The notes under the pieces were generated by a model that was given only the letters and a program-made list of their open reading frames with translations, searched no databases and was not told where the DNA came from. Shown here in pieces: positions 1,257 through 9,974 of a stretch of 22,146 bases of DNA. Every line of letters starts with the position of its first letter. Positions within the stretch are counted from its first letter, which is position 1. This stretch comes from a virus. Position numbers and translations under genes: made by a program. Location: the IMG/VR virus record IMGVR_UViG_3300007623_000037, positions 1-22,146 of that record, one strand, 5' to 3'.

Positions 1257-1574
1257 ATGAATAGCAAAATCGACTCATTTAAAACATTTTTAGAATCAAT
1301 GGATGTAAATGAAATGAGACTAAACAAATATATGAATGATTTAGATGGTAATTTGTTTAAATACACTCATAAAAAAATTATTTTACCAGATTATAATAAA
1401 ATTAAAAAAATGACAGGCGCAAAAGAACAAGAACTAGACGGTTCAGATGACGAAGGTCTTGTTTCTGCACTTATTGTTAATAAAAAACATATATTGACAT
1501 ATGATGAATTTGAAGGTTTAATTTATAGTAATTATCAATTAAAAGATTTATTAAAAGGTAATATTAATAATTAA
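1257..1574 (+). CDS. Unknown late protein with helical N-terminus (105 aa)
   Basis: One of only three plus-strand gene starts in the window. AAAGGAA precedes the ATG, and a TATAAATA element lies 22 bases upstream, which marks it as a late gene. The 105-residue product is acidic/lysine-rich. Its N-terminus MNSKIDSFKTFLESMDV vaguely resembles the capsid-targeting helix of T4 internal head proteins (pattern ...FxxFLxE/S), but this is weak. No domain is recognised. The gene converges on the C-terminal uvsW piece and their 3' ends overlap by 11 bases. A role in the virion is possible given late expression, but not shown. Confidence 0.7.
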   Translation: MNSKIDSFKTFLESMDVNEMRLNKYMNDLDGNLFKYTHKKIILPDYNKIKKMTGAKEQELDGSDDEGLVSALIVNKKHILTYDEFEGLIYSNYQLKDLLKGNINN

Positions 1575-1896
1575 TTTCACTTAATGGATATTCTATTTCT
1601 GATATAGGAAATTCTTCAGGATTATATGAAGTACTTTTTCTATGTTCATATTGTTTATAGAATATCCCACCAGGTTTACGAACACCAAAGTCATCAACTA
1701 AATCATACACAACAAATTCGGATTTAGTTTCATGTAATCTCATACCTCTACCAATACTTTGTGTAACTGTAGTATATGCTTTTAATGGCGAACTCAATAC
1801 CATGTTATGCAATTTTTTAATGTTTACACCAGTTGATAAAAGTTGATACCCTGATACTAATATTTGATTTTGTTTTTCAATCTTTTTTATTTTCAT
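1564..1896 (-). CDS. uvsW: UvsW-like helicase, C-terminal fragment (110 aa)
   Basis: This is the C-terminal end of a T4 UvsW-type superfamily 2 helicase, the enzyme that unwinds R-loops and branched DNA and moves T4 from origin- to recombination-dependent replication. It carries motif V (STGVNIKKLHNMVL), motif VI (QSIGRGMRLH) and a following YDLVDDFG, matching T4 UvsW in order and spacing. The ATG at 1896 is preferred over the one at 1932 because AAAGGAA lies ten bases before it and the homology starts a few residues later (EKQNQILVSGYQ). The start lies inside the 3' end of the endonuclease gene (20-base overlap), so translation is probably coupled. It lacks motifs I-III and cannot act without the other fragment (2668-4041). 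Confidence 0.85.
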   Translation of the reverse strand: MKIKKIEKQNQILVSGYQLLSTGVNIKKLHNMVLSSPLKAYTTVTQSIGRGMRLHETKSEFVVYDLVDDFGVRKPGGIFYKQYEHRKSTSYNPEEFPISEIEYPLSEINY

Positions 1897-2554
1897 AATA
1901 TTCCTTTGCATATTTGGATGTTGTGCCAACATATTTTATATTTTTAAATTCATAGAATAGTTCTTTTGGTATTCGTTTCATAATCTTTTCTTCTAAATCA
2001 AAACACGTAATTGTATTCTTACTTTTTAATCCTTGCTTTTGCTTTGCTTCATCAGAATGTGTTTTACCATACATCCCATTCTTTATACCGACAGAACCCT
2101 TTTTCTTATTGATTTCATCTGAATATTTTCTACCCTTTGATTCTGCAATTAAACCTCTTTCTTTTGCTTCTTGAACATCTATTTTAATCTTATCACCATT
2201 TTCATCTATATAAACAGCTTTGTCTTTAGAATATTTACCTACTTTTCTTCTGAAGTCGTCAGTCACATTTGGACCAACCCCGTCTAATCCATTTTCTTCT
2301 ATTAGATTAGCCCAATTATCTGATTCAACAATATTGTTTTCTCTTGAAAAATTTATTGCAGTGATTATAAGTTCTTCGCATTCATCTTCAAACTCAGCTA
2401 AAATTTCGGTAGATATATCATTACCATATTTCTTTAAGTGATTTCTCCAATATGTACCAGAACCATAATAACCATAAGGATCGTCTTGTTTAGTTTTACC
2501 GAAATATTTTAATCCGGTTTGATTATGGGTTTTTATATAAAGTTTTATAGACAT
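1877..2554 (-). CDS. GIY-YIG homing endonuclease with NUMOD3-like repeats
   Basis: A 225-residue homing endonuclease. The GIY-YIG core is at residues 1-45: 'LYIKTHNQTGLKYFGKTK' supplies the two motif strands, followed by YYGSGTYWRNHLKKYG, typical of phage Seg/Mob-type members. Residues about 140-185 carry NUMOD3-like DNA-binding motifs (GRKYSDE and NGMYGKTHSDEAKQK). The start has GGAG eight bases upstream. The gene sits exactly between the two parts of uvsW and its tail overlaps the start of the C-terminal piece, so it appears to be the invader that split the helicase gene. A late promoter (2688) and a strong hairpin (2593-2642) lie upstream, suggesting late expression. It looks full length. 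Confidence 0.9.
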   Translation of the reverse strand: MSIKLYIKTHNQTGLKYFGKTKQDDPYGYYGSGTYWRNHLKKYGNDISTEILAEFEDECEELIITAINFSRENNIVESDNWANLIEENGLDGVGPNVTDDFRRKVGKYSKDKAVYIDENGDKIKIDVQEAKERGLIAESKGRKYSDEINKKKGSVGIKNGMYGKTHSDEAKQKQGLKSKNTITCFDLEEKIMKRIPKELFYEFKNIKYVGTTSKYAKEYYENKKD

Positions 2555-2592
2555 TTTTATACTCCTATTTTTGATTAATCATAAGAGTGCAG

Positions 2593-2642
2593 TTGGCGGA
2601 CTGCATTTAATAAATTGCCAATCATCTCTTTAAGTCCGCCAA
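2593..2642 (-). promoter_or_regulatory. 10-bp inverted repeat / structured RNA upstream of the endonuclease
   Basis: TTGGCGGACT at 2593-2602 pairs perfectly with AGTCCGCCAA at 2633-2642, with a 30-base loop. A competing hairpin (GCAGT 2589-2593 with ACTGC 2600-2604) shares one arm, and AAGAG copies at 2583 and 2641 can pair with CTCTT at 2626. The G+C-rich stems stand out in this AT-rich genome. The element lies between the late promoter (2688) and the endonuclease start (2554). It has no U-tract, so it is not a simple terminator; a regulatory or intron-like RNA is possible. Confidence 0.6.
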
Positions 2643-2667
2643 GAGTAAAGAAACAAAAGACAATTTA

Positions 2668-4041
2668 CTAAATACCTCTTATATAATTATTTATATATTT
2701 TTCATCAATATCATCATCTTCAGTCAAATCTTTTGCTAACTTTAGTGTTCCGTCTTTCAATTTAACATCATCATTACTATGCAGATGAATTATAGTATTA
2801 TCTTCAAGGGTTATTTCAAAAAAATCTTCTTCGAGAATTTTTCTAGTTTTTTCCCTGGTCTTAGCATCATCACTTCCAGCAATGTAATAAATGCCATATT
2901 TCTTTTGAAATTCAAAACTATGTTTACCTGTTATCTGTTTTTGTTCTATATCAACACCCGGATGTAATTTTTCCATAATACCAAGATACATGGTTTGTAA
3001 ATGATCTATATGTTGCCCAAGAACTAACGTATTACCTTTTGCTCTTAATTTACATGTAAGATTAACAATAAAATCATTTCTTTGTTCATGTTCTTTTAAA
3101 AATTTTAATTGTTTTGCATATAATTTACCAGATTCTTTAAATAAATTTTTATCATTTTTTGAATATTTAAATATTATACTATTAATTTTGATAGGAGTGG
3201 CAAGTCCTCTTTCTATTAAACCAGCACTAGTTATATATGTTTTAGGTAAACCAAATAATCCGAATAATTCCATTTTCATAATTGGATCTTCTGGTAATGT
3301 ACCGGTAAAACCCCATTTAAATTTACAATTTAATGTACTTTTAACAATAGCAGCAGTTTCATTACTAGCGAATCTATGTGCTTCATCAGTTATAACGTAA
3401 TCTAACTTATCAAGTTCATCATGCCAATTTTGCATTGATTGCCAAGTTGATATAGTAAGTGAATTATTGAAATGCCTATCATTATTACCACCACCGATAA
3501 CATGAGTATCATCATAAAGGTCCATAAGATTATAATCCCTAATATCAGATTTAAACTGTGTAAGTAGGTTAATATTTGGAACAAGTAAAAGTCCTTTTTT
3601 ATTTTGTCTTCTCATAAATTCGGCTATTAATGAGATTGTCATTGATTTACCAGAACCTGTACACATCTTATTAATTTGTTTTACATTTAATATTGATTCT
3701 TTAAATGCAATTTCTTGAAAATCATAAGGTGGAAATGGTAAAATTTTTTTAACATCATCTAAATAATTATTAATATCATCAATAGTATAATCAGATTCAA
3801 GTTTCTCTTGTTCTACACCGAATGATTTTAATAATTGTAAATGACCATTCATAACCACTAACATTTTATTTTGAATATTCCCGAAATATTCGTACGGCGA
3901 TTTATAACCAGCTTTAACAGCTGGTTCAAAATATGCGCCTGGTCTTTCTACTTTCAAATATTCAAATAAATTTTTAATAGTTGTATTATCGGATTCTATA
4001 ACAGAAAACGATTCATTTAATTTATTTACAGTTATACTCAT
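2668..4041 (-). CDS. uvsW: UvsW-like helicase, N-terminal fragment with foreign Hint-like tail (457 aa)
   Basis: This is the N-terminal part of a UvsW-type SF2 helicase. Walker A is CTGSGKS (residues 127-133), the DEAH box is YVITDEAHRF (219-222) and motif III is GFTGT (244-248). The second RecA-like domain then runs through 'YYIAGSDDAKTREKTRKILEED' (about 385-406). Homology stops there, just before motif V. Residues 407-457 are unrelated and read like an intein/Hint block B region (EITLEDNTIIHL, then KDGTLKLAKDLTEDDDI), then a stop. The ATG at 4041 is chosen because UvsW homology begins there and the upstream TTG start lacks support. The stop of a 20-codon leader ORF overlaps this ATG (ATGA). 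Function needs assembly with the 1564-1896 product, or repair of the split. Confidence 0.87.
   Translation of the reverse strand: MSITVNKLNESFSVIESDNTTIKNLFEYLKVERPGAYFEPAVKAGYKSPYEYFGNIQNKMLVVMNGHLQLLKSFGVEQEKLESDYTIDDINNYLDDVKKILPFPPYDFQEIAFKESILNVKQINKMCTGSGKSMTISLIAEFMRRQNKKGLLLVPNINLLTQFKSDIRDYNLMDLYDDTHVIGGGNNDRHFNNSLTISTWQSMQNWHDELDKLDYVITDEAHRFASNETAAIVKSTLNCKFKWGFTGTLPEDPIMKMELFGLFGLPKTYITSAGLIERGLATPIKINSIIFKYSKNDKNLFKESGKLYAKQLKFLKEHEQRNDFIVNLTCKLRAKGNTLVLGQHIDHLQTMYLGIMEKLHPGVDIEQKQITGKHSFEFQKKYGIYYIAGSDDAKTREKTRKILEEDFFEITLEDNTIIHLHSNDDVKLKDGTLKLAKDLTEDDDIDEKYINNYIRGI
2688..2695 (-). promoter_or_regulatory. Candidate late promoter for the homing endonuclease
   Basis: The minus strand reads TATAAATA here, inside the last codons of the uvsW N-terminal fragment and about 135 bases before the endonuclease ATG. 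T4 intron-encoded and free-standing endonucleases are often driven from internal late promoters, which this arrangement resembles. Confidence 0.45.
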
Positions 4042-9132: not shown

Positions 9133-9252
9133 ATGTATAAAAATGTAAAACAGGGTTGGTATAATCTATTAAATGCTGCAAAATTTCAAAAACTAATAGA
9201 CGAGCACATGAAATCATTTAAAGATGGTAAATTGCTTCTTTTCTTATATTAA
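9133..9252 (+). pseudogene. 5' stub of an older gene 4 (head-completion nuclease)
   Basis: ATG at 9133 opens a 39-codon frame whose first 29 residues (MYKNVKQGWYNLLNAAKF..., then LIDEHMKSF) line up without gaps with the first 29 of the intact gp4 at 9495 (MYANAKKGLYKVINKNKV..., then PIDNHMQSF); I count 15 identities. After KDGK (about 9231) the frame enters the reverse complement of the endonuclease remnant and stops at 9250. It keeps a late promoter (9121-9128). It is a truncated leftover of a second, diverged gene 4, not a functional protein. Confidence 0.75.
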
Positions 9253-9442
9253 AAATCTTAATAATCTTATATTTGTAATTAAGCGGATTATCTTTCTGAT
9301 CCTGAATAAAATCTTTATCATTTGAACTACTAAAATATTTTATTCCTAAATCTAATTTAGGTTTAATGGATGACGTTCTTGTCCCATAATAATATAATTT
9401 ATCTTTAATATTTGTAATTCTATATACATAATGATATTTCAA
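9218..9442 (-). pseudogene. Truncated GIY-YIG homing endonuclease
   Basis: From a TTG at 9442 (GGGG nine bases upstream) the frame gives 74 residues: KYHYVYRITNIKDKLYYYG, containing the two GIY-YIG strands, then TRTS, 'LDLGIKYFSSSNDKDFIQ', NPLNYKYKIIKIF and RKEAI. This matches the N-terminal catalytic half of a phage GIY-YIG family. It ends abruptly at EAIYHL, where the sequence becomes the gene 4 stub; the rest of the catalytic domain, including the usual downstream Glu region, and the DNA-binding half are absent. The longer upstream open frame is the antisense of gp4. A TATAAATA (minus 9479-9472) lies 30 bases before the TTG. Confidence 0.75.
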
Positions 9443-9455
9443 AACAACATCCCCA

Positions 9456-9463
9456 TATAAATA
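9456..9463 (+). promoter_or_regulatory. gp4: Late promoter of intact gene 4
   Basis: TATAAATA on the plus strand, 31 bases before the TTG at 9495. Reading the plus strand I found this 8-mer only here, at 1227 and at 9121, in each case just ahead of a plus-strand start. Confidence 0.65.
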
Positions 9464-9471
9464 TTTTATAT

Positions 9472-9479
9472 TATTTATA
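9472..9479 (-). promoter_or_regulatory. Late promoter of the truncated endonuclease
   Basis: Minus-strand TATAAATA, 30 bases upstream of the TTG at 9442. It overlaps the leader of gene 4 on the other strand, so the two transcription units face each other with crossed promoters. Confidence 0.45.
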
Positions 9480-9494
9480 ATTTGGAGTAAAATA

Positions 9495-9974
9495 TTGTAC
9501 GCTAATGCAAAAAAAGGTTTATATAAAGTAATCAATAAAAATAAAGTAAAAAAACCAATAGATAACCATATGCAATCATTTATAATTGAAAATAATAATG
9601 TTTTTTTAGAGTATAAAAGTTCATTAGAATTAAAAGCAATAAGATATTGTGATTTCAACAAGTATATAACTTCGTTTGCATTAGAACCATTTGCAATAAA
9701 ATATATTAAACCAACGGACGGAAAATATCATAGATATTATATAGATTTGTTTATTGAATTTGTGACTGGCGAAAAATTTTTAGTAGAGATTAAAAGTAAA
9801 GGTGAAACAATAAGACCAAAAAAGCCTAAGAAAAATACTGAAAAGGCTAAGTTAAATTATGAAAAGTCTTTACAGACATATATAATTAACCAAGCTAAAT
9901 GGAAGGCCGCTAAAGAGTTTGCAAAATCAAATGATTTAAAATTTATTATATTGACTGAAGACGAATTAAAATAA
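9495..9974 (+). CDS. gp4: Head-completion nuclease, T4 gp4 (gp50) homologue
   Basis: A 159-residue protein of the T4 gp4 family, which acts after DNA packaging to complete the filled head before neck attachment; the fold is a TnsA-like PD-(D/E)xK nuclease. Visible matches: EYKSSLELKAIRYCDFN (T4 YRSSWEHRFFKWCD), DGKYHRYYIDLFIEF (D and HRYxxD), the active-site strand FLVEIKSKGE (ExK), RPKKPKK, QAKWKAAKEFAKSNDLKF and the ending ILTEDEL. The start is a TTG with GGAG seven bases upstream; no in-frame ATG fits. It converges on gp14, with one base between the stop codons. A diverged 5' copy of this gene survives at 9133-9252, suggesting that this one replaced it. Confidence 0.9.
   Translation: MYANAKKGLYKVINKNKVKKPIDNHMQSFIIENNNVFLEYKSSLELKAIRYCDFNKYITSFALEPFAIKYIKPTDGKYHRYYIDLFIEFVTGEKFLVEIKSKGETIRPKKPKKNTEKAKLNYEKSLQTYIINQAKWKAAKEFAKSNDLKFIILTEDELK

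Follow-up and report, generated by a model that had tools for sequence, protein, structure and literature searches.

What becomes of a phage helicase when its gene is cut in two by a homing endonuclease gene? The question is raised by a 22,146-nt stretch of viral DNA (IMG/VR record IMGVR_UViG_3300007623_000037; hereafter the window), in which three frames lie on the minus strand in the order uvsW-N (2668-4041), endonuclease (1877-2554) and uvsW-C (1564-1896). A preliminary description had proposed that uvsW is split around the endonuclease, and our analysis upheld this, with the break between motifs IV and V. The N piece encodes 457 aa, begins with MSITVNK and carries Walker A (CTGSGKS), DEAH and TGT as motifs I-III. 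The C piece begins with MKIKKIEKQN and carries motif V (STGVNIKK) and motif VI (QSIGRGMR); the earlier assignment of motifs I-III to 2668-4041 and of motifs V-VI to 1564-1896 agrees with both the motif reading and the domain matches. As also described before, the ATG of the C piece sits within the final codons of the 225-aa endonuclease, with an overlap of 20 nt, and is preceded by AAAGGAA.

The helicase part of the N piece (residues 1-404; 2830-4041, minus strand) comprises the N domain, RecA1 with motifs I-III and the first part of RecA2. It matched ResIII (E 1.1e-17) and T4 UvsW (2OCA, E 1.6e-29) and is 70% identical to an intact Vibrio phage UvsW. The helicase part of the C piece (1564-1863, minus strand), which holds motifs V and VI, matched T4 UvsW at E 4.3e-12, and the C piece is 63-85% identical to most other C parts. 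The SF2 motifs I-III and V-VI together with the T4 UvsW homology identify the split gene as a UvsW helicase. On 2OCA the N piece covers residues 112-364, with a marginal extension as far as 393, and the C piece covers residues 398-474, which places the break in the loop before the RecA2 motif V strand, with no helicase residue lost, and thereby within the second RecA-like domain, where it had been put before. Seven IMG/VR loci and six Vibrio phages match the N piece at 70-78% identity; in 12 of these 13 homologues the similarity ends near residue 404-405, the exception being locus L001, and the intact homologues inspected run uninterrupted across the break into motif V. Two stretches are not UvsW sequence: residues 405-457 of the N piece, which end in DFFEITLEDNTIIHLHSNDDVKLKDGTLKLAKDLTEDDDIDEKYINNYIRGI, and roughly the first 10 residues of the C piece. 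We refer to them as the tail (53 aa plus stop; 2668-2829, minus strand), which resembles half a Hint domain or IntN, and the head (MKIKKIEKQNQ; 1864-1896, minus strand), which resembles the first IntC strand; neither is present in intact UvsW.

The same split was found in other phages. Besides the window, L001 carries a split allele, in which tail and head are of the same kind and the endonuclease is related, and L018 is a third case. When the tails were used as queries, split uvsW genes turned up in 19 Dickeya limestonevirus and 58 Vibrio phage records, of which representatives rather than every record were read, and split uvsW with a tail is also present in the marine contigs L032 and L034-L037 and in L102. 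At least five lineages (the window clade, the Dickeya limestoneviruses, Vibrio phages K471/K476 and two marine groups) have related tails and heads at this break in uvsW, the tail directly after the same UvsW helix and the short head, MK[IP]xK[IV], before the motif V strand. A matching head accompanies the tail wherever both were read; the contig of L037 ends after the tail. Among 80 marine relatives, 72 have a clearly intact uvsW, and most of the others are cut by the contig end. No convincing tail match outside uvsW was found in IMG/VR, in 50,697 phage records or in the whole genomes of K471, K476 and the limestonevirus PP35, none was found in bacterial genomes, and a scan of viral contigs with the K471 tail gave no match. 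The L001 tail had only weak matches elsewhere, some of them within intein-bearing genes. In the window, L018, L034, the limestonevirus, K471 and K476, the C piece starts within the preceding frame or right at its end, which suggests that it may be expressed by translational coupling.

The window endonuclease matched phrog_314 (E 1.8e-9), and family homology thus supports the earlier naming of a GIY-YIG homing endonuclease; we read LYIKTH...LKYFGKT as its GIY-YIG motif, while the Pfam GIY-YIG family did not come up for this protein and NUMOD3 lay just below the cut-off. A GIY-YIG-like endonuclease is located at the break in the window, L001 and L018. By PHROG, the endonucleases of the limestoneviruses and of the marine loci L032/L034 are HNH types (phrog_655 and phrog_12434). 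In L102, about 150 nt with an endonuclease remnant separate the halves, and in K471 and K476 the halves overlap by ATGA without any endonuclease.

Comparison of split and intact alleles indicated what had been inserted. L001 has 947 nt where the related, intact L005 has 38 nt, and limestonevirus PP35 has 1132 nt where Shigella phage AG3, 90% identical and intact, has 46 nt. Between L034 and L032, dS is 1.20 in the helicase body and 1.27 in the C part but only 0.08 in the tail and 0.09 in the endonuclease; the head region is identical, and the similar block begins at the tail and ends just past the head. Since tail, endonuclease and head are near-identical inside diverged genes, they move as one cassette, and the limits and low dS of the block show that the tail is cargo of the mobile unit rather than random read-through. 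This transfer lends indirect support to homing of the endonuclease into intact uvsW.

What, then, is the tail? When seven tails were aligned by hhalign with the N fragments of five split inteins (gp41-1 and NrdJ-1 checked against the PDB; gp41-8, Npu DnaE and NrdA-2 as provisional sequences), the probability was 88% (88-90% over runs) with E 3.1e-6. None of 200 column shuffles reached this score, and reversed tails gave 0.18%. The two subgroups of tails matched each other at 97%, and each beat all of its own shuffles against the inteins. With verified inteins alone (gp41-1, NrdJ-1 and JA11), the probability was about 11-13% (12.7%, E 0.0023), again reached by 0 of 200 shuffles. The AF2 model of the window tail alone had a pLDDT of 87, and the tail within the N-piece model about 61-77. 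With this tail model, the top PDB match in Foldseek was Npu DnaE IntN (probability 0.99 but E 0.21), 37 of the 38 rows returned by VIA were inteins or intein-like domains, and Hint and intein proteins were among the first matches in BFVD. The best VIA match was to the half of IntN spanning residues 53-99 (Z 5.3, rmsd 2.2, 46 residues, for a domain of 53 aa). Pfam and PHROG scans of the tails gave chance-level matches only, and a PDB sequence profile search with the tails returned no intein. We regard the tail as intein-like because sequence register and structure agree; a Z near 5, or any single score, would be insufficient. On these models, the tail is best read as a beta mini-domain corresponding to the second half of the N fragment of a split intein.

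The residues needed for splicing are missing. The uvsW tails start where IntN residue 53 or so would be, the first ~50 IntN residues being absent, and the Cys/Ser nucleophile is lacking in all tails as the half of IntN with residue 1 is gone; the Ser that follows the UvsW homology in K471 and the limestonevirus precedes the second IntN half only. At the position aligned with the His of block B (TxxH), the seven tails have D, T, K, E, V, E and N. The heads stop after one strand and lack the IntC end of His-Asn followed by Cys/Ser/Thr. An active split intein was rejected as a candidate on these three features, and since neither Cys1 nor the block-B His nor the C-terminal His-Asn is present, protein splicing is very unlikely. 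Elsewhere, a helicase of the Dickeya phage JA11 does contain a genuine split intein, with Cys1, TEDH and VLVHN followed by Cys. In that locus (L048; MH389777, 128551-131657), the canonical split intein cuts another helicase just past TAT (motif III) and surrounds a frame that resembles an endonuclease and runs on the other strand, and the annotation gives only two helicase genes.

Our preferred reading, to which we assign a probability of about 0.66, is that a splicing-dead half-intein docking cassette makes the two chains act as one helicase. A homing cassette of tail, endonuclease and head would have inserted into uvsW in the loop that precedes motif V and split the gene, and the sequence it added at both new ends would be the docking device. 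The head of the C chain probably pairs with the tail strand to strand, as IntC does in split inteins. With the splicing centre gone, the chains would stay unligated and be held non-covalently, RecA2 being completed across two polypeptides. The endonuclease would carry the cassette into intact uvsW alleles and could be replaced or lost, whereas tail and head would be retained, as the helicase has come to need both. From this anatomy we infer head-tail pairing, assembly, helicase activity and the endonuclease target. Whether we are dealing with a class of mobile elements of split-intein origin, which no longer splice, dock non-covalently through halves of their own, pass between uvsW genes in distant phages, swap or lose their endonuclease and leave an obligate two-chain helicase behind, is in our judgement an evenly balanced proposition.

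It is also conceivable, though unlikely, that the two chains do work together as a helicase but that tail and head have no assembly role and are inert leftovers or serve, for example, translation coupling. RecA2 might reassemble by itself, the break being in a surface loop with no residue lost, and an older case of an endonuclease-split gene is that of T4 topoisomerase subunits 39/60 (PMC2988022). That the tail folds alone in AF2 would fit an inert domain, as would its faster evolution, its pN/pS being about 1.7 to 2.9 times that of the helicase body. However, between K471 and K476, in which synonymous change is saturated and no endonuclease is left, omega is 0.07 for the N body and pN/pS is 0.13 for the C piece and 0.26 for the tail, and the two tails share 31 of 50 residues compared to a maximum of 16 in 20,000 neutral simulations, fewer than 10% of which keep an open frame. 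The tail is likewise kept in L102 beside a mere endonuclease remnant, and the constant presence of a matching head also argues against inert sequence.

Slightly less likely again is that the split uvsW is dying or dead and is kept solely by endonuclease-driven spread. As far as is known, uvsW is not strictly essential in T4, and the C piece of L034/L032 has an 11-nt frame break, which points to possible damage in some cassette alleles. Apart from this, however, the split alleles keep open frames, and in pairs that include a split allele of the window clade the pN/pS of the halves (0.03-0.32) is like that of intact pairs (0.07-0.20), a sign of purifying selection; the low N-body omega of K471 and K476 is found without an endonuclease to drive spread. 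A second intact uvsW, which the preliminary description had said would make the locus a pseudogene, is absent from the three complete split-bearing relatives PP35, K471 and K476, each of which has one uvsW, the split one; the window itself is a 22-kb fragment, so its own phage might have a second copy.

A self-splicing intron that joins the halves in RNA, as assumed by the authors who annotated a 'putative intron I-LimI' in uvsW of LIMEstone1 (ORF122-124; PMC3296691), is highly improbable. An Rfam search at E up to 1 found no group I intron in the window or in seven other loci (L001, L010, L011, L018, L032, L034 and L102), whereas the T4 nrdB intron, the positive control, was found at E 1.6e-6. 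RNA splicing, by which the earlier description had allowed that its two-chain model might fail, was therefore rejected on the negative result in these eight loci. In addition, the tail shows conservation at the protein level, and the ATGA overlap in K471/K476 leaves no room for an intron. As neither an intron nor splicing residues were found, I-LimI is probably the tail/endonuclease/head cassette, which corrects the 'intron' annotation in cultured Dickeya phages. Least probable of all is that split-intein trans-splicing rejoins the halves, in spite of the intein-N-like sequence and fold of the tail and of a gene order (N-extein and tail, endonuclease, head and C-extein) as in the fractured JA11 gene, since the tails lack the first IntN half with Cys1 and the block-B His and the heads lack the remainder of IntC with the His-Asn-Cys/Ser/Thr end that JA11 has. 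With no intron signature, no protein-splicing residues and a single uvsW in the complete relatives, the two-chain helicase suggested earlier is the best-supported reading.

The closest known system is nrdA of phage Aeh1, in which, according to what Friedrich (2007) and Crona (2011) reportedly found, the order is nrdA-A/mobE/nrdA-B, the ends carry unique sequences and the NrdA chains reassemble. As in Aeh1, an endonuclease insertion without an intron has split an essential-type enzyme gene in uvsW, with unique extensions on both pieces; the split of nrdA and its function have been reviewed (PMC2988022). The preliminary description was correct in this likeness but not in regarding this as an isolated insertion of the Aeh1 kind, since the same break occurs in at least five lineages; it had overlooked the tail and head, the intein-like fold, the recurrence and the movement of the cassette. 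Unlike in Aeh1 NrdA, the uvsW tails are intein-like, occur in several lineages with different endonucleases or none, and are transferred as part of a cassette; the tails of the two systems show no similarity in sequence. Genes fractured by split inteins with an internal endonuclease, reportedly described by Dassa (2009), share with uvsW the order of N-extein and tail, endonuclease, and head and C-extein, but the uvsW tail and head lack all three JA11 signatures (Cys1, TEDH and VLVHNC) and most of the Hint domain.

LIMEstone1 has the same gene, the same break and a related tail and head as the window, and differs in its annotated intron, its HNH endonuclease (by PHROG) and its unrecognised tail (PMC3296691). 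T4 segE, located at inh/uvsW, is listed as a GIY-YIG endonuclease with uvsW as target, which is also the presumed target of the window endonuclease, but SegE adjoins uvsW without splitting it (PMC2988022). Gene 43 of Aeromonas phages 25 and 44RR, a different gene, is likewise a two-piece replication enzyme tied to a mobile endonuclease, and its pieces co-purify (PMC2988022). In a Dickeya limestonevirus (L016; MG266157.1, 137419-142461), gene 43 is broken into three pieces and accompanied by two HNH endonucleases, and no uvsW-type tails were seen by eye on this three-piece DNA polymerase.

Insertion-derived assembly tails are already known in principle from Aeh1 NrdA. What appears to be new is that the tails are of intein-like origin, that they recur at a single site whether the endonuclease is exchanged or absent, and that they are transferred as part of a cassette. 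If our preferred reading is true, the split uvsW is a natural intermediate between ligating split inteins and permanently two-chain enzymes, in which a mobile element repairs its own damage by docking and not by splicing. It would also give a mechanism for the general idea, put forward for Aeh1 NrdA, that tails derived from an insertion offset the breaking of the gene, and tail and head would be a compact natural two-part dimerisation tag, for which endonuclease-free isolates such as Vibrio phage K471 exist.

Several further observations were made at these loci. The 11-nt insert lies in motif V at L034:3354-3372 (TCC TCG TGA ATGAT TCG GGG) and is exactly the same in four contigs (L034, L032, L035 and L036), with matched TCG codons surrounding an immediate stop. 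If ribosomes hop, as is known from T4 gene 60, hopping over the insert would restore VASS-GTFSTG; the alternatives are a frameshift, re-initiation at GTG or gene damage. A 147-aa frame at 9218-9661 of the window (minus strand), beside structural genes, matched phrog_314 weakly (E 0.0044) and is possibly a second endonuclease or a fragment of one. In Vibrio phage SRILMA, a relative of the window endonuclease is labelled 'head-tail adaptor' (L013; PP083314.1, 120112-121086) and is likely a misannotated endonuclease. Two distinct cassettes (L001:5768-5820 and L034:2306-2440) have TATAAATA, which we take to be the T4 late-promoter consensus, immediately upstream of their endonuclease gene. In the window, the spacer upstream of the endonuclease gene (2555-2667, minus strand), which includes its AGGAG site, is predicted to form a strong hairpin (RNA fold -31.4 kcal/mol); a hairpin is likewise predicted upstream of the endonuclease in L018, where it is also strong, and in L001, where it masks the ribosome-binding site.
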